This document shows, piece after piece, positions 8,621 through 40,340 of a stretch of DNA of 40,342 nucleotides (its first letter is position 1; every line of letters starts with the position of its first letter). Below the pieces are notes generated by a model. It was not told the origin of the DNA and did not search any database. It was given only the letters and a program-made list of their open reading frames with translations. A program made the position numbers and the translations under genes. The stretch lies in the NCBI GenBank assembly GCA_020631545.1, contig JAHDHB010000002.1, positions 3,669 through 44,010 of the forward strand. The letters run 5' to 3'. This DNA comes from Saprospiraceae bacterium. GTDB taxonomy: Bacteria > Bacteroidota > Bacteroidia > Chitinophagales > Saprospiraceae.

Positions 8621-8655
8621 AAAGGACAATTTCAACGAAGTTGAAATTGTCCTTT
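8621..8655. repeat. Perfect 16-bp hairpin with 3-nt loop
   Basis: AAAGGACAATTTCAAC (8621-8636), GAA loop, GTTGAAATTGTCCTTT (8640-8655). Confidence 0.9.
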
Positions 8656-8697
8656 GTCCTTTGTCCTTTGTCCTTTGTCCTTTGTCCTTTGTCCTTT
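8649..8697. repeat. Heptanucleotide tandem array (GTCCTTT)x7
   Basis: Seven uninterrupted GTCCTTT units, then GTCCCCC. The first unit is part of the right arm of the adjoining hairpin. Confidence 0.95.
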
Positions 8698-8704
8698 GTC
8701 CCCC

Positions 8705-9823: not shown

Positions 9824-10705
9824 TTAGAAAGTCCAAACGTCATGCTCGAAGTTCTGGATACCTTTGTGAATTTTTTCAGCTTCAAAAAGGATGTCTATTC
9901 CTGCCTTATAATCTTGAATACGGCGGTCATAAACATTGGATTCCTTCATGATATAGCTAGAGAAATACCTCATTTCCATGATATCTTCCCAACTCATACG
10001 TTGAGCATCATTTCCTGGATTAAAAGAAGCGTTCCTTGCCAAAAGCTCACGACAATGTGGGTAATAAGCCCAGAACATAGGATACTCAAACTTGAAGTTC
10101 CCGTTGTCATCATATTCTTCCTTAAGTGGTGCAATACCAAGGATGCGAACTAGTAACATTGATGTTTCTTCATCAAAGAACCAAACCTCTTTAAGTCGGA
10201 ATTTCTTAATGTCTTCCCAGTTCAGATCATTCCGTACTACCTTAATCTTTTCCTCGTAAGTATCTGGGTCGAAAGTAATAATCGTATCTACAGAAGTACC
10301 CATAGAAGCGATTTCGTCCGGCTCCAGTTTGGTCTTAAATTTATCATCAATCGTACTGTATAGCGTAATTTGGCCATCCATGGCAGCATCCAAAAGGATG
10401 TTGATAAACGGGCCTTCCGGCCAAGTAAAATGCTTGTTCATTTTTTCACGAACATCAATAACACGCCAGATACGCTTTTCCCAAAACACATCCGCTTCAC
10501 GGATATGGTCATAGGAGATAAGCCTTCTGTCTTTGATGATATTCCTATCATATACATCATCTCTAGGCCCTTCTTCGTCAGTAGTTTCACCAGATTCGGT
10601 AAGTTCACTACTTTCATTCAAGACGGGTTGAGCCGTCAATGAGGCGCCTGTCATCAATAGTGCGCTCCAAAAAATGAAGCCGAAAATTTTGAAAAGGACT
10701 TTCAT
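9824..10705 (-). CDS. gldN: Gliding motility / T9SS protein GldN
   Basis: Last gene of the gldKLMN order. Sequence features include VYDRNIIKDRRLISYDHIREADVFWEKRIWRVIDVREKMNKHFTWPE and DLNWEDIKKFRLKEVWFFDEETS. Confidence 0.92.
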   Translation of the reverse strand: MKVLFKIFGFIFWSALLMTGASLTAQPVLNESSELTESGETTDEEGPRDDVYDRNIIKDRRLISYDHIREADVFWEKRIWRVIDVREKMNKHFTWPEGPFINILLDAAMDGQITLYSTIDDKFKTKLEPDEIASMGTSVDTIITFDPDTYEEKIKVVRNDLNWEDIKKFRLKEVWFFDEETSMLLVRILGIAPLKEEYDDNGNFKFEYPMFWAYYPHCRELLARNASFNPGNDAQRMSWEDIMEMRYFSSYIMKESNVYDRRIQDYKAGIDILFEAEKIHKGIQNFEHDVWTF

Positions 10706-10716
10706 GCGATTATTTT

Positions 10717-12324
10717 TTATTTGATCTTGATAACGATGTCTGGAAGTTGGCGACCAGCTTTATCACCAGGACACCTAGCCTTGATCTTACTGAAATAGTA
10801 AATATCACCAGGCTTTGCAGCGTTTTTCATGGTATTTGATTGTCCGGCAAAACGACCACCACGATTTATAGTCAAAATCGGGTCAGCACGCTTAGGAACA
10901 CGAGCAAACTCAAAACCATCAATAGAACATTTAGCTTCAAAATCAAAGTTTTCTAACTTAGCATAGATACCTTCCTGCCCTTTAAACTCCCCAGTACCCA
11001 TAGCACCTTTATTACAAGTACCAATACAAGGTTTTGGATCAGGAATACGTTTCACACGGAAATCATAGTTTGTAGCTTTCAAGCCACCACCAGACAACGT
11101 CACCTTAGCTTTTTGGCCAGGTTGAGTCACCTTGATATTATACTTAAATTTACCGTTTGGTGTCATATTACATCCACCTCCTGAACAGCTCACCTTCAAG
11201 GCGCTACTAGCGATACCACCAGCAGAAACAGAAATAGGATTGGTAACCCCAACGTAGAAAACATTCATTTTATCAGCAGAAACGTTCGCAGAACGCTCAC
11301 CAACTTCATATTTAAAAGTTTTGCTGAAATTGTCCCGCTTACCTGTAAACGGGTTTGTCAAAGCGATATCTACTTTGTAAGACTTCTCACCGATAGAGCT
11401 AGGAGTAGCAGTATAGGTAGCTACACCATCCTTTACAGGAAGCCCTTGCCCATTAACGCTAACGTTAACTTTGGCTTGGCTAGAAGAAGCACTCAAGAAG
11501 ATTTCTGCTTTATAAGGCTCTCCTTTAATGACGTAACCCTTTTCAGCAGAGGCTACGGCTTGGAATTTATCAAATTTTACAGTTGTTGCACCAATCTTAC
11601 TAGCTAAGTAATTAACGATGGCTGCTTCAGAAGTACGGGCATCATTTTGTAGCTTACCCAATAAAGGATAACATGCAGCTACAGGCATATGTCCAAAGTT
11701 GAAATCTTCCCAAGATTTTCCAGAATCAAGATAAGAAGAATCAATGCCCAAAGTCATTTGATTTTCTAATTCTTTAATTTCGGAAGGAATGATACCCAAT
11801 GATTTATTACCAGCAATCTTTTTAACAAGATCCAATAATTTTGTTTGGGTATCCGTAATAGCCGCAATCATTTTTGGGCCTTCAGGCTCAACTTTATCGC
11901 CTAGGCCACCTTCGTAACCTTCAACGAAAAAACGAGTAGGAATTTCTTTATCCTTATATAATCTTGGTCGTCCGATTTTTGAAGGAGTAGGAGCATCTTC
12001 AGCGGTAAAAGCACCACCAGCTTCCTCTTCCAATCGGTCTCTAACATCTCCAATATATTTGACGAAATCACCAACTATAGTTCTGGCATCTTCGGCAGGT
12101 TGAAGCAAAGGCTTATAATCCTGCTTCTTTTTGATGGATTCCTCCATGGATTCCACCACTTTTTCGTTTGCAATTCCAATAATACCGTTGGTTTTCTTTA
12201 AACCATCATCGATTTTGAAAAATGCGTTAATAATCTCCGCGGACACGTTCAAGGCCAACAGGGCAGTTAAAACAAGATACATCAAGTTGATCATTAACTG
12301 CCGCGGTTCCTTAGGTATTGACAT
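10717..12324 (-). CDS. gldM: Gliding motility / T9SS protein GldM
   Basis: MSIPKEPRQLMINLMYLVLTALLALNVSAEIINAFFKID N-terminal TM segment, periplasmic domains, position between gldL and gldN. Confidence 0.95.
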   Translation of the reverse strand: MSIPKEPRQLMINLMYLVLTALLALNVSAEIINAFFKIDDGLKKTNGIIGIANEKVVESMEESIKKKQDYKPLLQPAEDARTIVGDFVKYIGDVRDRLEEEAGGAFTAEDAPTPSKIGRPRLYKDKEIPTRFFVEGYEGGLGDKVEPEGPKMIAAITDTQTKLLDLVKKIAGNKSLGIIPSEIKELENQMTLGIDSSYLDSGKSWEDFNFGHMPVAACYPLLGKLQNDARTSEAAIVNYLASKIGATTVKFDKFQAVASAEKGYVIKGEPYKAEIFLSASSSQAKVNVSVNGQGLPVKDGVATYTATPSSIGEKSYKVDIALTNPFTGKRDNFSKTFKYEVGERSANVSADKMNVFYVGVTNPISVSAGGIASSALKVSCSGGGCNMTPNGKFKYNIKVTQPGQKAKVTLSGGGLKATNYDFRVKRIPDPKPCIGTCNKGAMGTGEFKGQEGIYAKLENFDFEAKCSIDGFEFARVPKRADPILTINRGGRFAGQSNTMKNAAKPGDIYYFSKIKARCPGDKAGRQLPDIVIKIK

Positions 12325-12446
12325 GGTTTTTTAATTTTAAGTACGTTCTTAAGTATAAGTCAACAAGGAATGCGAAATCTATCCATTAATGCATAAGCTA
12401 CTTTAAGGAAAACAGCTAAAGAATAGATTATCGAATTAATTCACAA

Positions 12447-13034
12447 CTATTTACCAAATGGGTTAGCCATTGCGGAAAGCATATTTCCATAAACAGAGTT
12501 CAAAGAACCAAGGTTTTTGTTCAAAGCACCTAATTGCTCTTTGTACATACGTGTATCGTCAATAGAATCATTAATATTAGCCATAGCTTCGTTAAGGTTT
12601 TGGTAAAAATCGCCCATCTTTTTGATTTGCTCTTTTGTACCTGTAAAATCAACCTCTTGAAGTGCTTTTAAAGAAGAAAGGCTACCAGACATAACTCGCA
12701 ACTCACCAAGCATGCCATCTAGTTGTCCTTCCATTTTTTCTGTATTAATATCAAGGTTAGCTCCTCCACCAGAACTCAATTGGAATCCCTCAACAGAACC
12801 ACCATACTTATCCAAACCAGGATATAGTTTTTCCCAGTAGTAATCTTTGTCAGGGCCAATAATACCAAGAAATGCAAAAAGTATAGCCTCAGTTACAAGA
12901 CCTACAGTCAACATCTCACTTGCATAAGGCCAGCTTTGAATTTTGAAAAGAGCGCCGAGAAGAACGACTGATGCCCCAAGACCAATGATGAGGTTTTTAA
13001 GGTACTTGAAACCTTTGGACTTTAAGAAACTCAT
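12447..13034 (-). CDS. gldL: Gliding motility / T9SS motor protein GldL
   Basis: Two TM helices at the N-terminus (LKNLIIGLGASVVLLGALFKIQSWPYASEMLTVGLVTEAILFAFLGI) and a helical C-terminus, in gldK-L-M-N order. Confidence 0.95.
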   Translation of the reverse strand: MSFLKSKGFKYLKNLIIGLGASVVLLGALFKIQSWPYASEMLTVGLVTEAILFAFLGIIGPDKDYYWEKLYPGLDKYGGSVEGFQLSSGGGANLDINTEKMEGQLDGMLGELRVMSGSLSSLKALQEVDFTGTKEQIKKMGDFYQNLNEAMANINDSIDDTRMYKEQLGALNKNLGSLNSVYGNMLSAMANPFGK

Positions 13035-13178
13035 TGTATCAGATTTTAAAATTAGTTAAAAGGGTTAGTTAAAATAAAGGATAGTCCTTCCAGCATAGGG
13101 GAACCAGTCCCCAATATTCTGGAAATTATTTAAATAAAAACAACAAACTCAAAATTGAAATTAAATAGACGACAACGA

Positions 13179-14423
13179 TTAGTTAAAATCGTTCAAAGAA
13201 CGCCCTAAGAAGGTCAATACACAGCGGAATCCTACATAAGACTTAGCCGTATCTTGGTATTCCCAGTGACGAGTACCCGTCTGGATGTAGAAAGCAATAT
13301 CCTTCCAAGAACCACCACGGATTACTTTACGTTTCCAAGCATTAGGATCATCATCTTCCGCATCAAAACGGATGTCAGGATTCAAATCATGTTGGAAAGC
13401 ATAAGCATTCTCGTAGAAGGCAGAAGAAGTCCACTCAGCTACGTTACCAGCCATACAGTACAAACCATAGTCATTAGGGAAGTAAGCATCAGCTTTTACC
13501 GTATAAAGGCCACCATCCTCAGGATAGTTTCCTCGACCAGGTTTGAAGTTAGCTAAGATACAGCCTTTTGCATTTCGGACATAGTAGCCACCCCAAGGGT
13601 ATGGAGCCCAATCATGTCCGCCACGAGCAGCATATTCCCACTCATGCTCAGTTGGTAGTCTGAAATCCTCTGTATGGAATTCACCGACTTGAGAACGGAA
13701 AGTATTCCAGAATTTTGTTCTCCAGTAAGAAAACGCAACGCCTCTTCTCCAATCTACACCAACAACAGGATAATCATCAAAGGCAGGGTGCCAAAAATAA
13801 TTCCTTGTCATAGGCTCGTTGTAAGAATAGGTAAAATCACGAATCCAAACTAAAGTATCTGGATATACAGAGATAGAATTTTTCTTAATGAACTTAGTTC
13901 GATTGGTTTGATAGTGATCATAAGCAGCTTTCTTCCAATCATACCATTGGTATTCAAAGATTAGCTTGCTTGTATTGATTTCACGTTTTCCTGAAAAACG
14001 CTCATCTTCAGCATAGTACATTTCTTCTAATTCCTCAGAAGCATACTCTAATTCAGCATCCCAATCAATAAGTGTAGTACCATTTTCAGATTCAATGAAA
14101 TGATCCATATATGTATGCGCGATAGAATCGCGAACCCAATCCACAAATTGGCGGTATTCATTATTGGTGACTTCCGTGTCATCCATATAAAAACCTTGGA
14201 TAGAAATAGACTTTGGTCTTTGCACCATAGTAGAATTCACATCTTGATCACTAGGTCCGATGTGAAGTGTTCCAGAAGGCACATATACCATACCATAGGG
14301 GTTAATCCCCTTCCATGCCGGCCTATTCAGCGTACCGGTCAATTGTCCGTTACTTCCGGACTTACAGGCCCCGATTGTTATGATTACAACAAGGGCTAAC
14401 AATAACTTTGGAAAATTTTTCAT
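13179..14423 (-). CDS. gldK: Gliding motility / T9SS lipoprotein GldK (FGE-sulfatase/SUMF1 fold)
   Basis: Lipoprotein-like MKNFPKLLLALVVIITIGACKSG; FGE motifs YGMVYVPSGTLHIG, DTEVTNNEYRQFV, RLPTEHEWEYAARGG, VIRGGSWKD, GFRCV. The ORF is open to 14462. Confidence 0.94.
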   Translation of the reverse strand: MKNFPKLLLALVVIITIGACKSGSNGQLTGTLNRPAWKGINPYGMVYVPSGTLHIGPSDQDVNSTMVQRPKSISIQGFYMDDTEVTNNEYRQFVDWVRDSIAHTYMDHFIESENGTTLIDWDAELEYASEELEEMYYAEDERFSGKREINTSKLIFEYQWYDWKKAAYDHYQTNRTKFIKKNSISVYPDTLVWIRDFTYSYNEPMTRNYFWHPAFDDYPVVGVDWRRGVAFSYWRTKFWNTFRSQVGEFHTEDFRLPTEHEWEYAARGGHDWAPYPWGGYYVRNAKGCILANFKPGRGNYPEDGGLYTVKADAYFPNDYGLYCMAGNVAEWTSSAFYENAYAFQHDLNPDIRFDAEDDDPNAWKRKVIRGGSWKDIAFYIQTGTRHWEYQDTAKSYVGFRCVLTFLGRSLNDFN

Positions 14424-14673
14424 ATTCGCACCCGAATTTTCGACAGATAAATTGTTAAACACAAGTATTTGGATAAAGAGAATTGTAAATATAGCTGATT
14501 AGAAAAAGATTAAAAAGAAATTCTTATCTTTTTTCACAACACAGCACATCATTCTTCTCGTTTTAAAAAATCAAAATTTAATCCCGAATTGGACTAAAAT
14601 TTCAACTTATATTTGGCACAAAACAACACTCCATTCAACTCTGCAATTAGCAAAGTCCTAATATAGGAAATAA

Positions 14674-15660
14674 TTAATAGAATCTCGGATTATAAATGAC
14701 CTTGGTCGGCACAGACCCTCCAATCTCTTTTCTAAGATTGTAGTTGATCATAATTTCATGAGAACCTTTATTAACTACTTTCAAAGGAGACAATGACAAG
14801 TCATAGGAATAAGCGACAGTAATATTATCCGTGACATGCATTCCTGCTAAGAACACAACTGCATCAATAGTGTTATTATTGTATCCACGGAGAGAAGACC
14901 CTCCAAATATTTTTTCATTATACTTCAAGACAGCAGACAATTCCGCTTGAGTTTGTATGGCATCAGATTTAACAAAAACTGATGGTTTTACAGCAAACCG
15001 ATTCCCAACTTCGAAGTCATATGCAAATATAAAAAAATAACTTCTTACTTGATCTATGTTTACGGTATTGTTGGTTGTCTCGTATGTAAAAGAAGCTGGA
15101 ATTAAATTATTCGCAGAAAACCCAGCTTCTATAGTCTTACTTTTATAATAAACTCCAAAATTTAGCGTAGGAGCAATCCCACTTACCTTCGTTAGCGGCA
15201 ATAAGTCATCATTATGGTTTATTGTTCCACTTTGATAAGTTCCTTCTGGAGCTCGTAGTTTAGTTCCATCTAAAGATTTTTGTAAAATTCCTCCTCCCAT
15301 TCCTACAGAGAAAAAAGCACTTTTCCTTAATTCTCTAACGTAATTGTAGGAAAAAGAAACACGAGTATTTCGTTCAGCCCCCAATATATCATTTTCTACA
15401 TCCAACCCCAAACCTCCACTAAGAAAATACCAAGGTAAATGTGCATTAAAATCTTGCGTAATTGGGCTACCATCTAAAGCTACCCATTGCTTACGAAATA
15501 CACCTGTAACACTCAACGATTCGTCTAACCCAGCATAAGCTACGTTAAAGTTATAAGGGTTAAGCATATACAGGCTGTATTGAGCAGGTTGCTGCGCAAA
15601 ACAGGGCTGAAAACTCCCTAAAATTAGGAGGAATAGTATCTTTGAGCAAAAATCTTTCAT
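14674..15660 (-). CDS. PorP/SprF-family type IX secretion system membrane protein
   Basis: FAQQPAQYSLYMLNPYNFNVAYAGLDESLSVTGVFRKQWVALDGSPITQDFNAHLPW is a typical PorP/SprF N-terminus. It is adjacent to gldKLMN. Confidence 0.9.
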   Translation of the reverse strand: MKDFCSKILFLLILGSFQPCFAQQPAQYSLYMLNPYNFNVAYAGLDESLSVTGVFRKQWVALDGSPITQDFNAHLPWYFLSGGLGLDVENDILGAERNTRVSFSYNYVRELRKSAFFSVGMGGGILQKSLDGTKLRAPEGTYQSGTINHNDDLLPLTKVSGIAPTLNFGVYYKSKTIEAGFSANNLIPASFTYETTNNTVNIDQVRSYFFIFAYDFEVGNRFAVKPSVFVKSDAIQTQAELSAVLKYNEKIFGGSSLRGYNNNTIDAVVFLAGMHVTDNITVAYSYDLSLSPLKVVNKGSHEIMINYNLRKEIGGSVPTKVIYNPRFY

Positions 15661-25776: not shown

Positions 25777-26763
25777 TTAAGGAGGAGAAATGTGTTTATC
25801 TTCCTCCAGTAAGATTTTTAAAATCGGCCAATAATCTGCTTTAACTAAGTCCTGAAAACGGATAATTTTGTGTTTATTGAGATATTGGAAAAAAGAACAA
25901 ATAGAACTATGAATTTCTTCCAAGATACGAAGCTCCTGAATTTCACCGATAATATTTGTTTGCTCGTGTTTTTGTAGCAAAGTTTTTAAATTTTGCACTT
26001 GTTCTCCCCAGTATTTATAATAATCATCTCTACCTTCAGGTGCGAAGTATTTAGCATCCCCAAGAAGAATGGGCAAAATTCTGTCTTTAAAATCTAACTC
26101 TTTCATCAATTCTAGAATTTCATACATACAAGATTTTGATTTTAGGAATTCGTCACTGATAAGAACAATAGCATGAGGCGTTTTCCTGATTTTTTCCATG
26201 AATTCTTTAATAGAAGCGCCTAGCATAAGCCTTCTTGTATCCCGTTCAAGAACAATCTCAAATTTCTGCCTAAAATCGTTATCCACTTGGTCAGCTTCTT
26301 CTTTATTTTTATGACAATAAGCTAAAAATATTTTCTTGTCCTTCAAGTCTTTAACAGACAGTTCGTAAAAGGGATATTGATGTCCAATCATATTTATTTT
26401 CTGATAAAAATTGGTATGATAATGATAAATATCTTTATCCATAGACGAGTGCGCAACGAGGTATTTTGCATGATGCGGAATTCGTTCTCCTTTATGAAAA
26501 TTGTAGGTTCCTACAGGCAAAAAAACTTGGGTAGACTTGCCATCTCTACCGGTCTCTACATAACCAATAATTCCCATTCGGTAGAGCGAATCAAAAGCAG
26601 AGCTAGGAAAATCGGTTTCTTCAATAACGATTTGGTCGATCTCTTTCGCATTTTTTATGGGAATCACATTAGATTCAATCAAGCTACAAACGACATTATA
26701 GGCATCATTTTTAAAAAAGGGAATCATCTCAAACTTATACTGACGTAAGAGGATATTACTCAT
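25777..26763 (-). CDS. TIR-domain protein, with an N-terminal segment that looks like the continuation of the upstream ATPase
   Basis: TIR features: KDKKIFLAYCHKNKEEADQVDNDFRQKFEIVLERDTRRLMLGASIKEFMEKIRKTPHAIVLISDEFLKSKSCMYEILELMKEL, including the C..E position expected for the catalytic Glu. The preceding ~125 aa contain a winged-helix-like stretch. Confidence 0.85.
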   Translation of the reverse strand: MSNILLRQYKFEMIPFFKNDAYNVVCSLIESNVIPIKNAKEIDQIVIEETDFPSSAFDSLYRMGIIGYVETGRDGKSTQVFLPVGTYNFHKGERIPHHAKYLVAHSSMDKDIYHYHTNFYQKINMIGHQYPFYELSVKDLKDKKIFLAYCHKNKEEADQVDNDFRQKFEIVLERDTRRLMLGASIKEFMEKIRKTPHAIVLISDEFLKSKSCMYEILELMKELDFKDRILPILLGDAKYFAPEGRDDYYKYWGEQVQNLKTLLQKHEQTNIIGEIQELRILEEIHSSICSFFQYLNKHKIIRFQDLVKADYWPILKILLEEDKHISPP

Positions 26764-26775
26764 ATCATTTACGGC

Positions 26776-27840
26776 TTACCGAATTGCTGTTGCTGTTCTA
26801 TTATTAGCTTTGATCCCATAACAAATACTTGCACCAATAGCTACAATTTCTCTTGGACGGCGAAAGGAATGCCTTAGGATAAAATCAAAAACATTTTCCT
26901 TTCTTTTTCTGCCGTATTCATTTCTTACAAATCTATGTTCGATTTCATCGAAGCCAAGAAAACGAACTAAAGCCTCCTTAGCCTTTGGTTTCACCAAATC
27001 ACGAGTAGCTGTTTTATTAATGTTTCGAATAAAAATATCACGTAACTCTTCATCGGTATAGTTCAATTCCGTCGTGTAATTAAGATCTTGCAGAACCGTA
27101 GACGAATTTACAAGAGCATAAGCTTCGCTACGAATAGAAGCAAAAATCTTAATATGTCGATTGGCTTCACATAGGTTCTTGACTGCTTCCCGCAAACCTA
27201 TTTGAGCATTTATCCAAACCCAAGGAGATAAGACGTGGTTTTTTTTCGCTTTCTGTAAATCATAATAAGTATCTCCTACATGTTTGTCAAATGCCTCATC
27301 TACATTATCAATAAAAACAGCAACTTGAGAAGTCAGGCCTTCAAAAACAGGCGATAACTCCTTAAAAACTAAATTATAGTACTTGTGAATTTTGTTCCTA
27401 TCTTCAAGGATACAGAAGAGAATATCTTTTAGTTTTTTCGCTTTGCCAAGAAGAGGCTCTAACTTTTTTGGGAGTTTTTCCGGCATTAAATTTTGAACAA
27501 TAAGCAGGTGTAGTGCTAAAGTCCAAATCATACGCCATACATCTATGCGCTTGTATTTATTCAGTTCTTTTATGGAAAAATGAGTATCCAATTCAACCAA
27601 ACGCTCGCTTAGGTCATTGACGGGAATACATTTAAAGCCTGATTTAGCTCTATACTGCTTACTTTTGGCTTTCAGCAATAAGGTTTTACCAAAACCTTTA
27701 GGCGCTACGATGAAGTACTTGCAGTCATTTTCATCGGTTTTAAGGTAAGTTCGAATAGATTGGTTATAGACAATATGTCTTTCCAGATCATCCAAATCTT
27801 TCAATTTGATGGTATTAGCATCTGTGTTCCATGCTATCAT
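26776..27840 (-). CDS. P-loop ATPase (resembles Sll1717-type ATPases), ORF closed by a TAA in frame with the TIR ORF
   Basis: Walker A-like YFIVAPKGFGKTLLLKAKS, Walker B-like VAVFIDNVDEAFD, and RRPREIVAIG near the C-terminus. The ORF ends TATAIR-TAA and is followed in the same frame by AVND-MSNILL. Confidence 0.85.
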   Translation of the reverse strand: MIAWNTDANTIKLKDLDDLERHIVYNQSIRTYLKTDENDCKYFIVAPKGFGKTLLLKAKSKQYRAKSGFKCIPVNDLSERLVELDTHFSIKELNKYKRIDVWRMIWTLALHLLIVQNLMPEKLPKKLEPLLGKAKKLKDILFCILEDRNKIHKYYNLVFKELSPVFEGLTSQVAVFIDNVDEAFDKHVGDTYYDLQKAKKNHVLSPWVWINAQIGLREAVKNLCEANRHIKIFASIRSEAYALVNSSTVLQDLNYTTELNYTDEELRDIFIRNINKTATRDLVKPKAKEALVRFLGFDEIEHRFVRNEYGRKRKENVFDFILRHSFRRPREIVAIGASICYGIKANNRTATAIR

Positions 27841-28895: not shown

Positions 28896-30197
28896 ATGAA
28901 AAATTTATTTTTTTCCATTTTCTTTTTTGTATTTGCTTTTGCATTTCATTCATGCAATGAAGATGAACTCCTTCTTTCTCAAGAGGATGAAACCACTGCT
29001 GTTTTTTCAAATGCTGAAGCAACGGCAATGGAGACTCCTGAGTATTCAGCAGCTCTTCAGCGTTTTGTAAGCTATGAGTATCCTAATCAATCTATCCAAA
29101 ATCTAGCTGCCTTTAAGATTGATCAAACAGAGTACTATAGCATTACGCTCAACAATGAGCTTCAAATCACTGTTCCTACTGAAGATGTAAATTCTTACAG
29201 ACCAAGTAGAACACGTGGTGGTGGTACTACGGATACTGGTACAACGAACACGGGTACAACAAACACGACAGATACAGGAACAACGAACACGACGCATACG
29301 GGTACAACGAATACAACGAATACAACGAATACCCATACAGGTACTTGTACAGACACTCATTCTGGTACGCATACTGGAAGTCATTCACACTCTCATTCTC
29401 ATACTCATACTGGAACAGGTACAAATACTTGTACTAACACTCACACAAGTACGACAGGTACGCATACGGGTACAGGCACTTGTACGGACACTCATTCTGG
29501 TACGCATACAGGAAGCCATACTCATTCTAACACACATACCCATACTGGTAGTACTTCTACTTGTACTAATACTCACACGGGTACAACAGGAACTCATACG
29601 GGTACAGGGACTTGTACAGACACTCATTCTGGTACGCATACGGGTACGCACACTCATTCGAATACGCATACGCACACGGGTACTGGGACTACGACTTGTA
29701 CTGATACGCACACTAGTACAAATACAGGTACTGGTACTACGAATGACGATGATGATGATGGTACGCATACCACGAATACCACAAACGATGATGATGATGA
29801 TGGTACGCACACAACAAATACCACAAATGATGATGACGATGATGGTACAAGTACTACAACAGGTACTACAGATACGACTACAGATGATGACGATGATGCA
29901 GGACAACCCTGTAATGCACCTGGTACGCCAAGTGTAATGATTTTCAATGGAGGAACAGCAGCCGTTGTCTACTGGAGCCCTGTTTTTGATGCTTCCTCTT
30001 ATACCGTTCAGTATAGAGCGCATGGTACAGCTACCTTTACGATTATCCAAGCTGCGAATAATATCGTTATGATACCTTCTTTGGTCTTTTGCCAAAACTA
30101 TGAAGTCATCGTGACTGCAAATTGTTCTGCTGGTGCTTCTCAACCTAGCCCAACTGCTTCTTTCCAAACTGTTTACGGTTCAAGTGGCCCTTGCTAA
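28896..30197 (+). CDS. Lipoprotein with X-Thr (His/Cys/Gly/Asp/Asn) dipeptide array, poly-Asp repeats and C-terminal FN3-like domain
   Basis: Lipobox-like MKNLFFSIFFFVFAFAFHSC; array GTCTDTHSGTHTGSHTHSNTHTHTGSTSTCTNTHTGTTGTHTGT; NDDDDDGTHTTNTT repeats; FN3-like tail PGTPSVMIFNGGTAAVVYWSPVFDASSYTVQYRAHGTATFTII. Confidence 0.88.
   Translation: MKNLFFSIFFFVFAFAFHSCNEDELLLSQEDETTAVFSNAEATAMETPEYSAALQRFVSYEYPNQSIQNLAAFKIDQTEYYSITLNNELQITVPTEDVNSYRPSRTRGGGTTDTGTTNTGTTNTTDTGTTNTTHTGTTNTTNTTNTHTGTCTDTHSGTHTGSHSHSHSHTHTGTGTNTCTNTHTSTTGTHTGTGTCTDTHSGTHTGSHTHSNTHTHTGSTSTCTNTHTGTTGTHTGTGTCTDTHSGTHTGTHTHSNTHTHTGTGTTTCTDTHTSTNTGTGTTNDDDDDGTHTTNTTNDDDDDGTHTTNTTNDDDDDGTSTTTGTTDTTTDDDDDAGQPCNAPGTPSVMIFNGGTAAVVYWSPVFDASSYTVQYRAHGTATFTIIQAANNIVMIPSLVFCQNYEVIVTANCSAGASQPSPTASFQTVYGSSGPC
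29218..29905 (+). repeat. Coding repeat block: three 132-135 bp units, then 42-bp poly-Asp units
   Basis: ACTTGTACxGACACTCATTCTGGTACGCAT recurs with unit starts at about 29340, 29475 and 29607. AATGAC/AACGAT-GAT-rich NDDDDDGTHTTNTT 42-bp units start at about 29742. Confidence 0.88.
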
Positions 30198-30255: not shown

Positions 30256-30294
30256 AGAGGGTAGGAGGATTAATTTCCTTCTACCCTCTTTTTA
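30256..30294 (+). terminator. Rho-independent terminator after the X-Thr lipoprotein
   Basis: AGAGGGTAGGAGG ... CCTTCTACCCTCT stem followed by TTTTT. Confidence 0.75.
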
Positions 30295-30903: not shown

Positions 30904-33900
30904 CTATCTAGGAATTATAGAGTAAATGCCGTTATTCTTCGTCCAAATAATTTTATCAACAGCATTGACATCGCCATCTAAATTCAGATCGCCTAGAAGA
31001 TAGGCATTAAAACTTCCATTCTCTGTACTGAATCTCACCTTGTCATCTCCAGAAATATCATAACCAGAAACATCATACTGTTGCTCTGCATCTCCAGCAA
31101 ACATAGCCCATCTATTTGGTGCCACTGTTGCTTGCCCTTGGCTTGCCCCTACGGCATAACTATCTTGACTTCTAAAGTCATAAGTTAGAGTATTGTTATT
31201 CAATTCGATAGCTTGAGGAGTAAGTACGCCTATATGGTTACGGTGTTCAATCAAAACATAATAGGAAGTTTCTTCAGGATCGAAAGGCATACAATCAGCG
31301 ACGAAGACGATGCGGCCATCCCGTTCAAGCAAAGCGGCTGTTTTATAGATTTCCGTACTCCGCTCAACTCCTGTACGTACAGAAACCAAAACCCAGTCAA
31401 CGACTTCATTATTGTAGCTGGTGCTATCAAACTCTATACCTTCTTCCCCTAAGTAATTCCAAGGAGGGCCAGAATAAGGATGTCCAACATTAGGCAATAA
31501 GGGCGATTGCCCTGGCAAAATACGATGTACCGTATTCAACATGGTGGTCATTTTCTCTGATGATGGGTCATAGGCGCCTTCTAGAAGAGCCCATAATTGG
31601 AGATCAACACAGCTTGGCCCTAGAATGGTCAGGAAAACTTTAGCCCGCTCGCATCGCTGCGGAATGCCGTTATCACATATTTGGTAAACAAATTCATCTG
31701 CGCCTACATAACCTGCATCAGGCATATACGTATAGTTGCCATCAGGCTGCATAATGACGACACCGTGTAAAGGACTACCGACTACCGTCACTTCCAAATC
31801 GTCCCTATTGCCATCAGGGTCACTGTCATTGGCAAGGACAAACCCAGCGTATAGGGTATTCATGGAAAGTGTATCACGATCAAACACGGCAAAAGGTGTG
31901 GCATTACAGATATCTACCTGTACCGTTACTTCATCTGTGGCTGAGCATCCATTTTTAGTCGCTGTGAGGGTATAAACGGTGGTCACAGGAGGATTAGCAA
32001 ATGTATTTCCTTCAAAAGGATGGCTAAGGCCAATATTAGGTGTCCATTCATACTGTGAGGTAGGAAAATTAGAATCTCCTCCAAGTAAAACACCCTGCAC
32101 ATCAGGATTAAAACACATCGACCGATCTACCCCTGCATCTAAAGCAGGCGGATACTTCCGCTCTACCACGACTTCATCCGTAGCGATACAACCATTCCTA
32201 TTTACTGTAACTGTATATGTTTTAGAAATCGGCGTATTTACTAAAGGATTAGGAGAAGTGGGGTCATCAAGTCCAATAGTCGGTGACCACGAATAAGTAA
32301 CACCAGCAAGAGGGCCAGTAGGTTCGCCACCGATGCGTACACCTTCTCCACAATCTGATTTATCACTCCCTGCATCAGCAAATAATTCGCCATTTTCGAC
32401 ATAGATAGTCACCTCATCTGTCAAGACACAGTTGCCGTAAGAAACGATTACTTGATAAGTGGTTGTCGTATCAGGATAAACTACAGGTTTTGCGACGGAG
32501 GTGTTATTGATGTTATAAGAAGGACTCCATTGAAAAACAGCTCCAAAGGGGCCCGTAGAGCTACCGCCTAATTGGACTGATTCTCCAGGACATAAGATGG
32601 AATTCTGCCCCGCATCTGCATAGGCTGCTTGCCCTACGGTAATGCTTTCCGTTTGGGTAACACTACAAATATCGTTGGTCACGGTTAAGCTAATTGTTTT
32701 TATTCCTCCAGTAGTATAAAGTACATTTTCTGTACGGTTGGTAGAGAATGAGGGGACTGCACCGCTTCCAAAAAACCACGTATAAGTAGCGTCAGCGCCT
32801 TGATCTTCTGCCTCAAAACTCGCGTAAGAGGTAGCACAAATTTGAGTAGGAAGAATCATCGTAGCAATAGGGCAAGGTGTAATCGAAATGAAAACATTTG
32901 CTTGGCTACATGCAGAAGGTTGACCATTATCACAAACTTCGTACACAAAGCTGTCTTGCCCCATAGAACCGATAGTTGGTGTGTACTCGAAGAAACCACT
33001 AGGGCTTAAGGTTAGACTACCTTTGGCAGGAGGAACGACGAGCGCGGGATTGGCTAGTAGTGCATTGTTTTCAATATCCGAATCATTACTCAAAAGATTG
33101 CCGGTTAAAGTCTCTCCCTCTATAGCTTCTAGATAGTCTGGTTGTGCTAGGGGAGCATCATTAACGTTGTTCACATAGATATTTACAACTCCTTGAGTAC
33201 ATTGAACTGGAGGAATACTCCCACTATCACAAATTTGATAGGTGAATGGTGTAACATTTCCATAAAAATCATTGGCAGGAATGAAGGTAAGTGTACCACC
33301 AGTATTGAGCAAAACTAATCCTTCTGAAGCCGGCGGAGAAGAAGTTAACGCTAAAGAAGTCGGGTTTAAATCGCCATCTATATCTATATCGTTTTCCAAA
33401 ACTAGGATATTGATAGGCACTTCTTCTGCTGCTTGTACATTATCGGTATTGGCTATCGGCCGATCATTTACAGGATTTACTTGTATACTTACGGTTGCTT
33501 GATCACAGAGGGAGGGGACACCATCATCACAAACAAGGTAAGTAAAATTATCAGTTCCATTATAGTCTACATCAGATAGATAAACAAAGACACCATTCGC
33601 CGCCATAGAGACTTGTCCATAAGTAGGTTCTACGATAAGTGTATTATTTACCGATAAAGTATTCCCATCCGCATCACTATCGTTGAGCAAGACATTCCCT
33701 AGTGCTGGCTCCTCCTCATTTGCAATTAAGACATCGTTCTGTGCAACGGGTGCATCATTTTCGGAGGTAACGGTAATGCTAAGCGCGGCTGTTGCGCAAC
33801 TAACGGGTAAGGGTGTTCCGGTATCACAAACTTCATAGGTCATAGATAAAGTACCAGCGAAGTTGGCAGCGGGCACAAAAGTCGCTTGGCCTTGATTGTC

Positions 33901-36900
33901 TACACTAAAAAAACCTTGACTAGCAGTAGGAAGTGGGTAGAATTGTAAGGTCGAGATATCAAGCTGTCCGTCAATATCGTTATCATTGTCCAGTACATTA
34001 AAAAAGACTGGGGTACCTTCATTGGTCGTTACATTATCTGGGGCTAGGTTGGGAGCATCATTTTGGGGCAAAACAGTAATGTAAACCGTAGCATTTGCAC
34101 AGAAGGAGGGCGTACTACCGTCACAAGCTCTATAGACAAAGCTATCTTGCCCCGAAAAATTGGGGTTAGGTGTGTAGTAAATATCCCCACTGGTTTGTAG
34201 CCCAAGTGTACCATTCGTCGGAAATACGACGGGTGATCCATCAATAGAGACAAAATTGCCATTGGGATCTAAATCATTGGATAAGACGTTGGCTCCCACA
34301 AATTCATCTTCATTGGTGACCAAGTAATCATCTTGAGGAGTAGGCGTATTATTGCAACTCTGCGTGGTAATAATTTGCTCGGTCGCATCAGCACATTCGA
34401 AATATTGAATGGCTAGAGCGACCTTGTAGTTGCCGATAGCATCCCAAGAGCTTGTAGCAGCCAAGGCATTGGAGAAACCAGGATCCCCATTTTCAAAAAG
34501 CCAAGTATAGTTCATTCCTGGTCGATTTTCATTGGCCAAGAAAATTGTTGGCGTATTTGTACAAACATCCTCTGTTGGAATGGTAAAATTAGCTGTGGGG
34601 CAAGGAACATTTTCTCGTCCTGGCGTCCCATTGGCCGAAGAAGCTTCCCAGTTCTGCGCCAAGGCATTATCCGAAAGAGGATCGATTAAGGAAAGCGAAG
34701 GCCCAAAGCCGTCGGGTTCTGTAGGCCAAGGAGCTGCATCATCATAATGAACAACATCAGCGAAGCAACGATTCGTATCAAAAAGTCGAATTTTCTCCCC
34801 TCCACTACTCAAGGTAAAACCAAGGGGCCCAAGGAAATTTTGAACGGTAGGATAAGCAGCCGCGAAGAAGCTGACATCCGAAACTAAGACTAAAAATCCA
34901 TTCGGAGGAATAATCGTATTGGCAGGAAATTCGTAAGCTTTAGCAACATCATGCAATTCCCACCCCGTAAGATCCACTGCTACAGAAGAAGTATTGTGAA
35001 GCTCTAACCAATCGCCAGGAATAAACGTAGCTGAAGATTTGTAATTGATTTCATTGATGACAATGCCATGGTCTACCCCATCACAAAAATTTGTATTAGC
35101 AGCGCCAGGCGTACCCGAGGCATTGGTAGAAGGCGCCCAGTTTTCTCCTAGGGTATTGTCCAAGGCTGGGTCTATTAAGGATAGTGAAGGGCCTTCTCCA
35201 GTAAGCCCCTCAGGCCAAGGAGCTACATTGTCATAGTCTATAGCATCAACAACGCAACTTTCCTCGCTAAGCAACTGAATTTTTTCGCCTCCAGCACTAA
35301 ACCCAAAAACTAAATTGCCTACATAATTGGAAACCTCGGGGTATACTGCCGTGAAGAAAGTGTCATTTTCTACCAGTGCTAAGTAGCCGCCAGCGGGAAT
35401 AGTAGTTCCTACAGGCACGAAAAAATTAAATTTGGAATCTTGCAATTGCCAATTGGAAATATCCACTGCATTGGCGGTAGGATTGTGCAACTCTACCCAA
35501 TCCCCACTATCATAAGTAGCTAGAGGATAAGAAGTAACCTCATTAATAACCAAACCAGCAGGATTGGCATAGCAAGGATTTGAATTCTCTGCGTTTGGCG
35601 TACCACAATCCGGTACAGAAGGATGCCAATTCCCAAAAAGATCATTATCCAAATCAGAATTGGTTAGCTCTAGAGAGGGGCCTTCTTCATCTGGAGAAGT
35701 AGGCCAAGGCGCATCATCATCATAGGAGACTTCATCAATGAGGTTGCCATTTGGATCGACTAAAGCGACAAGTTCTCCATTTCCCGACAATTTGCCTATG
35801 TACTCTCCATAGGCAGGAAAACCAAAGATCGCCAAAAAGGCATCCGAGTCGTTGGTCAAGACTAAAAATCCATTAGGAGGGATGATAGCATCTTCTTCAA
35901 ATCGGAAACGTAAGCCTTCTTCAAAATAGCTGTGTTTTAGATTGATTGGTGTGTTTCCTTTATTTTTAAACTCGATAAACTCCGCATTATTACAAGGATC
36001 ACTTGGCCCGTATTGTAGTTCATTGATGACAATGTTTGAGTAATCTTGAGGGCTGTAAAAAGTTCGTGGACACATAGCACTCCAGTTATCCCCACTTTTC
36101 ACTCTAGCTTTTAAGGTTGTTACTCCTTGTAAGGCAATTGGAGAGGAATAGATTTGAGCGGTAGGAGAAATCCCCCCACCAAAACTTCTAGGATCCGAGC
36201 CATCTGTAGTATAATAGACTGTGCCATAACCGTTAGGATTGGTCACTGTGAGAGAACCATTTGGAAGGTTACCACCGTATTGAGAAAGTTGTACGGCTTG
36301 GAGGCTACTCGGATAGTATCCTTTATTCTTATAAAAATTGACAAGATTGGTGGAACGATTTTGAAAAAACACATTGATAACGTCTTCCACTTCGACCCTC
36401 CATTCATCATCCATTGACCAAGAGTCTGGAGCCCATCTTACCGTTTCTGCCAACAAAGGCAGCTCAATGCTGTTACTTCTCTCCCGATAAAGCGGCTCAA
36501 GATGCGTTCTCGTCAATAATCCTTCATTAAAGCAATGGCATTGCACACGGTCACCCAACAACACCCTAAACTCTTCTGCATCAAGCAATTCCGAAGGAAT
36601 AGGCCCTGTTTTATGCGTTCCATCATAATTGACCAAAGCCCCATAATAATCTTCAAAGGTTCCTACATTTCCTAGGGTCAAATCAACATCCCAAATCATG
36701 AATTGGTAGGCCTGCTTTCCTGCATTGATATTGGTGGCTCCTAGGCTGTTATGATTTTGGGACCAATCAAAGTTGGCTATCCAATGATTCAGCACCAAAT
36801 AATCAGCGGCCCGCTGTAAATTGACATAATTAGACAGCCCTGTGTAGTAAAACTCAAGGTTTAAGTTGAAGTTTTCTACATAACTTTCAAACTGGTCATA

Positions 36901-37854
36901 GAATGGAGGCGAAATAGGTTGATCAAGATAATTCCCATTTTTACGCGTTTCATAATGACTCTTTTTCCCACCATAATACTCTCTAAGAAACCCCGCTGTC
37001 GTTCGTTCCATAAGGTGATATTGCCCCATGTATTCGCCATTGACATAGGTATGTACATAGCGCCCATGCGGTGCAGGATACCCCAATTCTAATTCCCGAT
37101 CAAAAAGAAAGCGGTTACGGAGAAATTGCGGATCCCTAAGGTTACCGTATTCCGCATTCAGACCATCTTGGCTCCCTGCTCGTAGTAGCAACTCATCAAA
37201 GGTAGAAGTAGGTCGAATACCGTATTCAAAGCCATCATCAAAAATAGGATATTCCAGCTCTTTGGCTCCATATTGAGATTTGAATTCTAAGCGATAATTC
37301 TTCTTAGGATTATCGGGACTCCCTCCCCAAGTTTGAATACCACAATGAATATTAAAAGCAGAGGTGCCATCGGGAAAAAATAACTCTACAGAAGTTTCCA
37401 CTTCATCATCAACATGATTGTTAGAAACGACATCGGATGAGGTAATAGAAACCGTAGGAATTTCAAGCAAAGCATTTTTAACCAATTGGTTGTAAATAGG
37501 ATTGCTTTGAATAGGATGATTCATATACCCACTATTCATGATGTCATTGAGAAAAATGTAGGTATGTGTTTCAACATCCGTTTCACTTACAGGCGTATAG
37601 GCCATGGCACGAATGTTATCCGTACCAGAAATGCTTATCGGACCATTGTAAATGCTTCCGTTCGTAATACTCGGTTTAGTGTTATCTCTTGTATAACGAA
37701 TTACCGCAGTTGGTTCATCAGCGGTCAACGTTAATAAGAAAGGTGTTTCATAAAACCCTCGTTCAGAACTAAAGGTAAGCGAACTAACCGTTTGTCCAAA
37801 AACAGAAAAACTTAGTCCAATGAGCAGTAGGGTAAATAGGTTCGAATAATGCAT
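30904..37854 (-). CDS. Giant secreted CotH-kinase-like protein with chitobiase-C-like, lamin-tail, PKD-like, tandem-95/cadherin-like and dockerin-like C-terminal regions
   Basis: Signal peptide; CotH-like block GIQTWGGSPDNPKKNYRLEFKSQYG...RNRFLFDRELELGYPAPHGRYVHTYVNGEYMGQYHLMERT; lamin-tail-like VINEVTSYPLATYDSGDWVELHNPT; tandem-95-like NDAPVAQNDVLIANEEEPALGNVLLNDSDADG; C-terminal GDLNLDGDVNAVDKIIWTKNNGIYSIIPR. Confidence 0.9.
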   Translation of the reverse strand: MHYSNLFTLLLIGLSFSVFGQTVSSLTFSSERGFYETPFLLTLTADEPTAVIRYTRDNTKPSITNGSIYNGPISISGTDNIRAMAYTPVSETDVETHTYIFLNDIMNSGYMNHPIQSNPIYNQLVKNALLEIPTVSITSSDVVSNNHVDDEVETSVELFFPDGTSAFNIHCGIQTWGGSPDNPKKNYRLEFKSQYGAKELEYPIFDDGFEYGIRPTSTFDELLLRAGSQDGLNAEYGNLRDPQFLRNRFLFDRELELGYPAPHGRYVHTYVNGEYMGQYHLMERTTAGFLREYYGGKKSHYETRKNGNYLDQPISPPFYDQFESYVENFNLNLEFYYTGLSNYVNLQRAADYLVLNHWIANFDWSQNHNSLGATNINAGKQAYQFMIWDVDLTLGNVGTFEDYYGALVNYDGTHKTGPIPSELLDAEEFRVLLGDRVQCHCFNEGLLTRTHLEPLYRERSNSIELPLLAETVRWAPDSWSMDDEWRVEVEDVINVFFQNRSTNLVNFYKNKGYYPSSLQAVQLSQYGGNLPNGSLTVTNPNGYGTVYYTTDGSDPRSFGGGISPTAQIYSSPIALQGVTTLKARVKSGDNWSAMCPRTFYSPQDYSNIVINELQYGPSDPCNNAEFIEFKNKGNTPINLKHSYFEEGLRFRFEEDAIIPPNGFLVLTNDSDAFLAIFGFPAYGEYIGKLSGNGELVALVDPNGNLIDEVSYDDDAPWPTSPDEEGPSLELTNSDLDNDLFGNWHPSVPDCGTPNAENSNPCYANPAGLVINEVTSYPLATYDSGDWVELHNPTANAVDISNWQLQDSKFNFFVPVGTTIPAGGYLALVENDTFFTAVYPEVSNYVGNLVFGFSAGGEKIQLLSEESCVVDAIDYDNVAPWPEGLTGEGPSLSLIDPALDNTLGENWAPSTNASGTPGAANTNFCDGVDHGIVINEINYKSSATFIPGDWLELHNTSSVAVDLTGWELHDVAKAYEFPANTIIPPNGFLVLVSDVSFFAAAYPTVQNFLGPLGFTLSSGGEKIRLFDTNRCFADVVHYDDAAPWPTEPDGFGPSLSLIDPLSDNALAQNWEASSANGTPGRENVPCPTANFTIPTEDVCTNTPTIFLANENRPGMNYTWLFENGDPGFSNALAATSSWDAIGNYKVALAIQYFECADATEQIITTQSCNNTPTPQDDYLVTNEDEFVGANVLSNDLDPNGNFVSIDGSPVVFPTNGTLGLQTSGDIYYTPNPNFSGQDSFVYRACDGSTPSFCANATVYITVLPQNDAPNLAPDNVTTNEGTPVFFNVLDNDNDIDGQLDISTLQFYPLPTASQGFFSVDNQGQATFVPAANFAGTLSMTYEVCDTGTPLPVSCATAALSITVTSENDAPVAQNDVLIANEEEPALGNVLLNDSDADGNTLSVNNTLIVEPTYGQVSMAANGVFVYLSDVDYNGTDNFTYLVCDDGVPSLCDQATVSIQVNPVNDRPIANTDNVQAAEEVPINILVLENDIDIDGDLNPTSLALTSSPPASEGLVLLNTGGTLTFIPANDFYGNVTPFTYQICDSGSIPPVQCTQGVVNIYVNNVNDAPLAQPDYLEAIEGETLTGNLLSNDSDIENNALLANPALVVPPAKGSLTLSPSGFFEYTPTIGSMGQDSFVYEVCDNGQPSACSQANVFISITPCPIATMILPTQICATSYASFEAEDQGADATYTWFFGSGAVPSFSTNRTENVLYTTGGIKTISLTVTNDICSVTQTESITVGQAAYADAGQNSILCPGESVQLGGSSTGPFGAVFQWSPSYNINNTSVAKPVVYPDTTTTYQVIVSYGNCVLTDEVTIYVENGELFADAGSDKSDCGEGVRIGGEPTGPLAGVTYSWSPTIGLDDPTSPNPLVNTPISKTYTVTVNRNGCIATDEVVVERKYPPALDAGVDRSMCFNPDVQGVLLGGDSNFPTSQYEWTPNIGLSHPFEGNTFANPPVTTVYTLTATKNGCSATDEVTVQVDICNATPFAVFDRDTLSMNTLYAGFVLANDSDPDGNRDDLEVTVVGSPLHGVVIMQPDGNYTYMPDAGYVGADEFVYQICDNGIPQRCERAKVFLTILGPSCVDLQLWALLEGAYDPSSEKMTTMLNTVHRILPGQSPLLPNVGHPYSGPPWNYLGEEGIEFDSTSYNNEVVDWVLVSVRTGVERSTEIYKTAALLERDGRIVFVADCMPFDPEETSYYVLIEHRNHIGVLTPQAIELNNNTLTYDFRSQDSYAVGASQGQATVAPNRWAMFAGDAEQQYDVSGYDISGDDKVRFSTENGSFNAYLLGDLNLDGDVNAVDKIIWTKNNGIYSIIPR

Positions 37855-38909: not shown

Positions 38910-40340
38910 ATGAATGATATGCTCGAAAAGCTTCTTGTTGAGCTTAAAGCTAAGGGGATTCGTCTAATCCTTCAAGGTGGTAAATTAGAGGTCAAATCTA
39001 ATAAAAAAATTGCTTCGGCTGATTTGCTAAAAATACAACAGGTTAAAGAGATAGTTTTAACCTACCTTACGTCTACTTCCAACAAACGTTTTTTAGCTGA
39101 TAATCAACAAAGAAGGCTTTGGAACCTAGAGCGGCAATATGTTGAATCGCCTAGGTACAATCAGGCGCTACCTTTTCATATAGAAGAAAAGATGGACGAG
39201 TATTTTTTGCGAGATTCTCTAAGGAAAGTAGTCCTTGCTTTTCCTCAATTACGGCTACGATTTCAAGAGGTCGAGGGACAACTCCATAAGTTTCATGATC
39301 TTTCTCCAAAATGTATTCAATTAGACCTTATTGATTTACCGAATCATGAATGTACTGGTAGAAATCGCTTAAAAGAATATGTGCAGAAACCCTTTGACTT
39401 GGTTACAGGCCCTTGCTTCCGCCTAGGTTGCCTACGTTCTCCATCTACAAAACAAGACATCTTGGTTCTTGTTATGCATCAAATTATAGGCGATTATAGC
39501 TCAATGGCTACGTTTATGAGGGAACTGATGAAAGCTTATGCGGGGCAGCCAATCAGCCAACGTGCCTTCGAACAACAGCGGAAAACTATCCGCGAAAAGG
39601 CGACTTCGGTTCATTATTGGTTGAATAACTTAAGGGATGTACAACCCCTTAGTTTTCTTGAGAATAGGACTTGTACGCCTAGTACGAAGGGGCGAACGGT
39701 TTCTATTAATTTTTCAGTGGCCAACACCAACAAAATGCTGCGTTTTTGTGCAGATATGCAAGTACATCCTGCTGTTTTGCTCCAAACTTCTCTTCAGTTT
39801 TTCTTGCATAATTTATCGAAAGAGAGGGATTTTATTATTGCTACGCCATTAGACACGCGTGATGAGGTTACCGAGGATGGTGTTATTGCCAATTTCACTC
39901 GCTTGTTTCCTATTCGGGAGTCCATTTCTACCTCCAATAGCCTTGAGGAGGCGCTAAAAAAAGTAGAACTTTCTTTAGCTAAAATCATGCATTACAAGCA
40001 CATCCATTGTCAACGCTTAAGATCCATCATTAAGAAACAAAATACATGGTCTGTTGCTTTTCCGCCTTATCAAGTGCTTTTTCATTATATCAATTCTGTC
40101 AATTTTTTAAATAATGCTCTCCCTAGTCTTCGCCCTGTTTCCTTTGAACGCGGAATAGCGGATCTGGATCTTTCTTTTCAATGTATTTTAGACGCACAAG
40201 GTTTAATTTTTCAATTGGAATATCGAAATGAATTATTTGATGATAAATCGGGCATGGCTATTCTTATACAATTTACCCAACTTTGCAAGAAACTGGTAGA
40301 TACTAAAGGGGCTGCTTTTTTAACTAAAGCTTTTGCCTAA
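38910..40340 (+). CDS. Stand-alone NRPS condensation-domain-like protein with N-terminal TubC-type docking domain
   Basis: TubC-like MLEKLLVELKAKGIRLILQGGKLEVKSNKKIASADLLKIQQVKEIVLTYL; C-domain features LVMHQIIGDYSSMATFMRELMKAY, DTRDEVTEDGVIANFTRLFPIRES, SLAKIMHYKHIHCQRL. Stop TAA at 40338-40340. Confidence 0.85.
   Translation: MNDMLEKLLVELKAKGIRLILQGGKLEVKSNKKIASADLLKIQQVKEIVLTYLTSTSNKRFLADNQQRRLWNLERQYVESPRYNQALPFHIEEKMDEYFLRDSLRKVVLAFPQLRLRFQEVEGQLHKFHDLSPKCIQLDLIDLPNHECTGRNRLKEYVQKPFDLVTGPCFRLGCLRSPSTKQDILVLVMHQIIGDYSSMATFMRELMKAYAGQPISQRAFEQQRKTIREKATSVHYWLNNLRDVQPLSFLENRTCTPSTKGRTVSINFSVANTNKMLRFCADMQVHPAVLLQTSLQFFLHNLSKERDFIIATPLDTRDEVTEDGVIANFTRLFPIRESISTSNSLEEALKKVELSLAKIMHYKHIHCQRLRSIIKKQNTWSVAFPPYQVLFHYINSVNFLNNALPSLRPVSFERGIADLDLSFQCILDAQGLIFQLEYRNELFDDKSGMAILIQFTQLCKKLVDTKGAAFLTKAFA

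Follow-up and report, generated by a model that had tools for sequence, protein, structure and literature searches.

The gene located at positions 28896..30197 (plus strand) of the window, i.e., the whole stretch of 40,342 nucleotides analyzed here, encodes a lipoprotein of 433 amino acids that we judge to be a genuine selected orphan, in which a known type of surface stalk with alternating hydroxyl residues is joined to a known type of lipoprotein linker rich in metal ligands. Low-complexity protein segments are commonly dismissed as inert linkers, and the internal repeats of this protein allow that view to be tested directly. The array segment displays clear selection at the amino-acid level, with the metal ligands kept in register.

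The lipoprotein character of this open reading frame (ORF), which was assigned by ORF listing and translation, had been read correctly in the first-pass annotation. The signal peptide inferred from the sequence (MKNLFFSIFFFVFAFAFHS, aa 1-19, 28896..28952, plus strand as for all features of the gene) bears the lipobox-like motif FHSC and ends at Cys20. This lipidated residue opens the acidic tail C-N-E-D-E (28953..28967), which resembles a Bacteroidetes lipoprotein export signal and fits the LES rule of Cys, polar residue, then acidic residues. Surface lipoproteins of Bacteroidetes carry signals such as SDDDD, SDDFE and QKDDE (PMC5080379), and, by resemblance of CNEDE to the first two, the protein is probably displayed on the surface. 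Neither Por_Secre_tail nor a similar type IX secretion C-terminal sorting domain was detected in the lipoprotein with Pfam/NCBIfam models. Next comes a small N-terminal domain (aa ~50-99, 29043..29192, with a wider bound of aa 46-105), delimited by structural model, Foldseek and profile, and a Thr-rich lead-in (TTDTGTTNTGTTN..., aa 111-148, 29226..29339). The repeat units of about 44-45 aa noted previously are indeed present, as three units of 45, 44 and 44 aa starting at aa 149, 194 and 238 (aa 149-193, 29340..29474; aa 194-237, 29475..29606; aa 238-281, 29607..29738). The poly-Asp blocks and the FN3-like domain that had been described behind them were likewise mapped: three blocks of 14 aa (aa 283-324, 29742..29867), namely NDDDDDGTHTTNTT, NDDDDDGTHTTNTT and NDDDDDGTSTTTGT, start at aa 283, 297 and 311, a fourth Asp5 block follows (aa 330-334, 29883..29897), and the FN3 domain (aa 341-423, 29916..30164) scored 26.7 bits with Pfam fn3 at a cut-off of 25. 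The DxDxDG spacing within the Asp blocks is suggestive of Ca2+ loops as a matter of motif resemblance. Since the downstream gene is convergent, the lipoprotein gene is probably transcribed alone; a single-gene transcript is also suggested by a terminator-like hairpin with a T-run (14 pairs, 30256..30289, plus strand), a kind of site of which shuffled sequence yields about as many.

With regard to the X-Thr alternation, order beyond chance was observed, with the amendment that the alternating class is hydroxyl (Thr or Ser) and not Thr alone. In the array core, which forms the middle third of the protein (aa 133-282; 150 residues, comprising 69 Thr, 26 His and 6 Cys), 53 Thr pairs were found at i,i+2 compared to 31.1 ± 3.0 (maximum 44) in 100,000 composition-preserving shuffles, and Thr-Thr neighbours amounted to 8 compared to 31 in shuffles (minimum 18). 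The longest unbroken X-[ST] run extends over 26 pairs (52 aa, aa 230-281), while the maximum reached by 20,000 shuffles was 20. The phase of the alternation shifts by one residue approximately once per unit, and the X residues are limited to G/H/S/N/C/D. These shuffle tests on the alternation demonstrate order, not function. Concerning shape, an AlphaFold model of the whole chain gave pLDDT values of about 26-46 across the array, too low for use, and a single folded beta ladder is not supported.

A search for array homologues, as had been proposed, found none in 398 genomes of the bacterial family or in close relatives. Similarly, no whole-protein homologue emerged from a scan of 85,462 genomes, nor did tblastn of the lipoprotein retrieve any from plasmids, and the gene is missing from both genomes of the same genus, including the position next to their conserved 2-oxoglutarate dehydrogenase gene. 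Weak N-terminal matches to the lipoprotein mostly reflected signal-peptide similarity, and the best other match to the N-terminal domain in the 398 family genomes (48%, genome G343) lay in a non-open frame and was discarded. The motif TCT[DN]TH[ST] was present six times in this gene and twice elsewhere in the 398 genomes, the latter being chance matches.

Because no array homologue was found, the repeat units were compared with each other for linker drift, and as no homologue has the array the evidence of conservation is limited to three units in one gene. In a protein-guided gapped alignment, which leans towards similarity, the three pairs of units diverged by 47.5%, 64.7% and 55.0% at synonymous sites and by 7.1%, 11.2% and 11.1% at replacement sites. 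The resulting pN/pS ratios were 0.15-0.20 (0.18-0.50 in an ungapped alignment), in both cases well under the values of 1.3 or more obtained for the other two reading frames. Amino-acid differences between units numbered 6, 8 and 7 versus 15, 20 and 18 under neutral placement of an equal number of changes, and none of 5,000 neutral simulations per unit pair came as low. High synonymous divergence together with protein conservation in the coding frame only therefore marks the units as old duplicates whose sequence has been kept. The protein sequence of the array is maintained by selection and is not slippage junk, and the unit-to-unit comparison speaks against a linker that drifts. Alternative ORFs on both strands inside the array were considered as well and rejected as by-products of ACN codons, with no constraint where tested.

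The conserved positions include the candidate ligands. All six array Cys sit in a module C-T-[D/N]-T-H, and both Cys columns are invariant across units. As to their supposedly regular spacing, two Cys per unit is accurate, and the actual intervals are 28/17/27/17/28. Every unit contains four to five His spaced as HxH; the His run reads HSHSHSHTH in the first unit and HTHSNTHTH in the second and third. Among the eight gap-free columns in which most residues are His, seven are invariant, synonymous changes occur in three of these seven, and the hydroxyl class is retained in 40 of 43 gap-free columns across the three units.

The N-terminal domain is probably a divergent PepSY-like domain, as judged from profile and fold comparisons. 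PepSY-like proteins (PF11396) are built on a BLIP-like half-domain of a helix and antiparallel strands. Folded alone, the N-terminal domain was modelled as a helix plus three strands (pLDDT about 87), and Foldseek ranked 3db7 and 3due, both PepSY-like DUF2874 proteins, at positions 5 and 20 (prob 0.91/0.80, E 0.34/0.65). Against a PepSY-like profile built from 69 domains of the same bacterial family it scored 8.8 bits, a value reached by 2 of ~1,900 scored shuffles and exceeded by 1 of ~3,580 unrelated windows; this control comprised 3,607 windows from other ORFs, from which true PepSY-like members of PF11396 loci and the gene itself were set aside. The hhalign probability for a PepSY-like assignment was only 3%, and the domain gave no PF11396 match at all and reached no Pfam cut-off.

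PF11396 was present in 65 of 150 genomes of the bacterial family, in which PepSY-like lipoproteins have repeatedly gained His- or Asp-rich segments. In many of them the composition of these low-complexity segments is strikingly similar to that of the present protein: the segments are Gly/His/Met-rich in G003, G057, G182, G175 and G013 and acidic in G125, G138 and G141, while G136 combines His blocks with Asp blocks. Stretches that are His-rich or acidic occurred in 12 of 23 PepSY-like proteins versus 12 of 138 other ORFs (proteins of at least 190 aa; p = 4e-6); part of this set had been selected on ORF length prior to inspection of the linkers, and false frames may be present among the control ORFs. 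Copper loci harbour three of the representatives richest in His: the neighbours in G003 are an HMA protein, a Cu-type P-ATPase with HMA, DUF3347 and DUF305; in G057, an outer-membrane efflux protein (OEP) and a CusB-like HlyD_D23 protein with a heavy-metal-binding domain (HMBD); and in G182, a TonB receptor and a multicopper oxidase. Given such His- or Asp-rich linkers, some of them in copper loci, a metal-handling role of the family, for which PF11396 proteins are candidates, becomes directly testable. His-rich PepSY-like genes in copper or heavy-metal loci were recorded at L313:6051-6977, L316:5553-6467 and L319:335-1261. In other loci (L314:6138-6842, L315:6140-6952, L321:5786-6556), the PepSY-like gene comes third, behind one for an ECF sigma factor and one for a putative anti-sigma factor, a linkage that suggests control by stress on the envelope or from metals. 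Two PepSY-like genes of Bacteroides thetaiotaomicron, BT0922 and BT0923, were upregulated about 4- and 5-fold when iron was depleted (PMC10434189), and in Porphyromonas gingivalis a DUF2874 lipoprotein has been discussed along with a two-component system tied to hemin acquisition (PMC3764172).

In an extended chain, residues i, i+2 and i+4 point to one face. The first-pass annotation had suggested metal binding by His, Cys and Asp, for which we see about an even chance, in view of the retained His and Cys columns, of the zinc binding of HxH stretches and peptides in vitro (PMC7873184) and of the relatives in copper loci; metal binding is the best-supported added function that we can infer for the array, at that same level of confidence. 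No metal genes were found beside the lipoprotein gene. On the joint reading, which we regard as evenly poised between right and wrong, the protein would be a surface lipoprotein whose extended stalk buffers transition metals and Ca2+ and holds out the FN3 domain. It would be anchored in the outer membrane and probably displayed through the CNEDE export signal, the small PepSY-like domain adjoining the membrane and the FN3 domain standing at the tip. Between both domains, a presumably extended and mostly unfolded stalk would expose alternating hydroxyl residues on one face and the six C-T-[D/N]-T-H modules, the HxH runs and the Asp5 blocks on the opposite one. Cu or Zn may be bound or buffered through HxH and CxDxH, the Asp blocks may bind Ca2+, and the stalk would keep the FN3 domain away from the membrane. 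It appears rather unlikely that the array goes further and represents a previously undescribed modular metal-binding polymer on a surface PepSY-like lipoprotein, within a wider Bacteroidota metal-buffering family linked to copper resistance.

A somewhat unlikely alternative is that the array is a plain hydrophilic spacer, possibly O-glycosylated, that merely lifts the FN3 domain, its His and Cys being incidental. This would agree with the Thr-alternating arrays listed in ORFs for exported proteins of many phyla (L145, L158, L168, L174 and others), with other Thr-rich segments in exported proteins of the same genus, and with serine-rich repeat (SRR) stalks and staphylococcal Ser-Asp (SD) repeats, which alternate likewise with Ser (PMC6973325, PMC3794999). 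A genome contig scan listed many such arrays of other phyla in long exported-protein ORFs, the arrays among the matches listed reaching about 500 residues and the very long ones including L145:3960-7808, L158:5968-7998, L174:2501-6469 and L168:5516-7999. Long Thr-alternating linkers are a widespread class that seems to have been little described, and, because linkers of this type that lack metal ligands are common elsewhere, alternation alone says nothing about metals. As a class, Thr-alternating arrays are not new; the present one is set apart by its X set together with the regular Cys/His module. In the listed arrays of L145, L158, L168, L174 and L180, the X positions are filled mainly by P, A, N, F, S or Y. 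A mere spacer is at odds with the restricted G/H/S/N/C/D set of the present array, its density of His and Cys and the conservation of their columns. As regards sugars, the O-glycosylation motif of Bacteroidota is D-[ST]-[ALVIMT] (PMC12871550), and of the seven D-[ST]-x sites DTT at aa 326 conforms to it, the other six being non-canonical; because this site alone fits, the known Bacteroidota system is unlikely to O-glycosylate the protein densely.

It is improbable that the stalk is a disulfide-crosslinked cable, stiffened or polymerized by intra- or intermolecular pairing of the six array Cys. Two invariant, regularly spaced Cys per unit would suit such pairing, as would a low-confidence single-sequence AlphaFold model in which strands pair around the Cys. 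However, the confidence of this model is too low to use, and the residue at +2 from each Cys is D/N and that at +4 is His, a pattern not required for disulfides. Even less probable is that the array is neutral low-complexity DNA generated by repeat slippage, without any selected protein property. Its units are in tandem and ACN-type microsatellites are numerous in the same bacterial family, 12-fold ACNNNN runs being present in 30 of 398 genomes, but the other family arrays inspected are simple repeats of one or two residues, for the most part within short ORFs, and the high synonymous divergence with coding-frame conservation described above is contrary to slippage. As for the comparison with insect antifreeze proteins, an ice-binding Thr ladder retains only a negligible probability, since, despite six TCT motifs and long TxTxT runs, the TCT motifs are not spaced by 12 residues, no second Cys follows six residues on, the array lacks the 12-residue TCTxSxNCxxAx coil with paired Cys, and the X-[ST] runs of 38-52 aa are turn-free, whereas known coils are short and regular (PMC8038014).

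Several further features were recorded in the window. A TIR-domain protein and a putative P-loop ATPase adjoin on the minus strand (25777-27840) as a possible defence pair, the former with a weak PADLOC match to ThsB. A gliding/type IX secretion cluster (9824-15660) encodes GldN, GldM, GldL, an FGE-sulfatase-domain protein (GldK-like) and PorP/SprF. The gene convergent with that of the lipoprotein (30904-37854) encodes a 2316-aa protein with CotH kinase, Lamin Tail, Ig/cadherin-like and PKD domains. A perfect tandem repeat of TTGTCCT (7.9 copies, 8647-8701) lies just 3' of a minus-strand Na/Ca exchanger gene, and the start of a nonribosomal peptide synthetase gene (TubC docking and condensation domain, 38910-40340) runs off the window.

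Compared with known systems, the beetle proteins TmAFP and RiAFP share TCT and TxTxTxT strings with the array, from which their 12-residue disulfide-bonded coil is missing; in TmAFP the repeat TCTxSxNCxxAx places Cys at positions 2 and 8 of the coil (PMC8038014), and the regularly spaced TxTxTxT strands with turns of the RiAFP type do not occur in the array. SLC39A7 and related zinc transporters resemble it in having a small residue before alternating His, as in SHSHSHTH of the array (PMC7873184), although their HxH stretches are loops of membrane transporters with no Thr array. SRR glycoproteins and Ser-Asp adhesins are alike in forming a surface stalk with a hydroxyl at every second residue (PMC6973325, PMC3794999), but they use Ser instead of Thr, are Gram-positive and LPXTG-anchored and have dedicated glycosyltransferases, SRRPs also depending on SecA2/Y2; neither SecA2/Y2 nor a Gtf cluster was found among the annotated genes of the window. 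The arrays of L145, L158, L168, L174 and L180 share the X-Thr alternation over tens to hundreds of residues and are without a regular Cys/His module such as the lipoprotein possesses. In contrast to the Thr-alternating array, which is accompanied by FN3, the recognised PepSY-like proteins of G003, G057, G182, G136 and G175 have Gly/Met-based linkers and no FN3 domain, and several of this group belong to copper or sigma-factor operons, unlike the array lipoprotein gene. They nevertheless share with the array lipoprotein its overall plan, that is, a lipoprotein with a small helix-plus-strands domain and a ligand-rich low-complexity segment.
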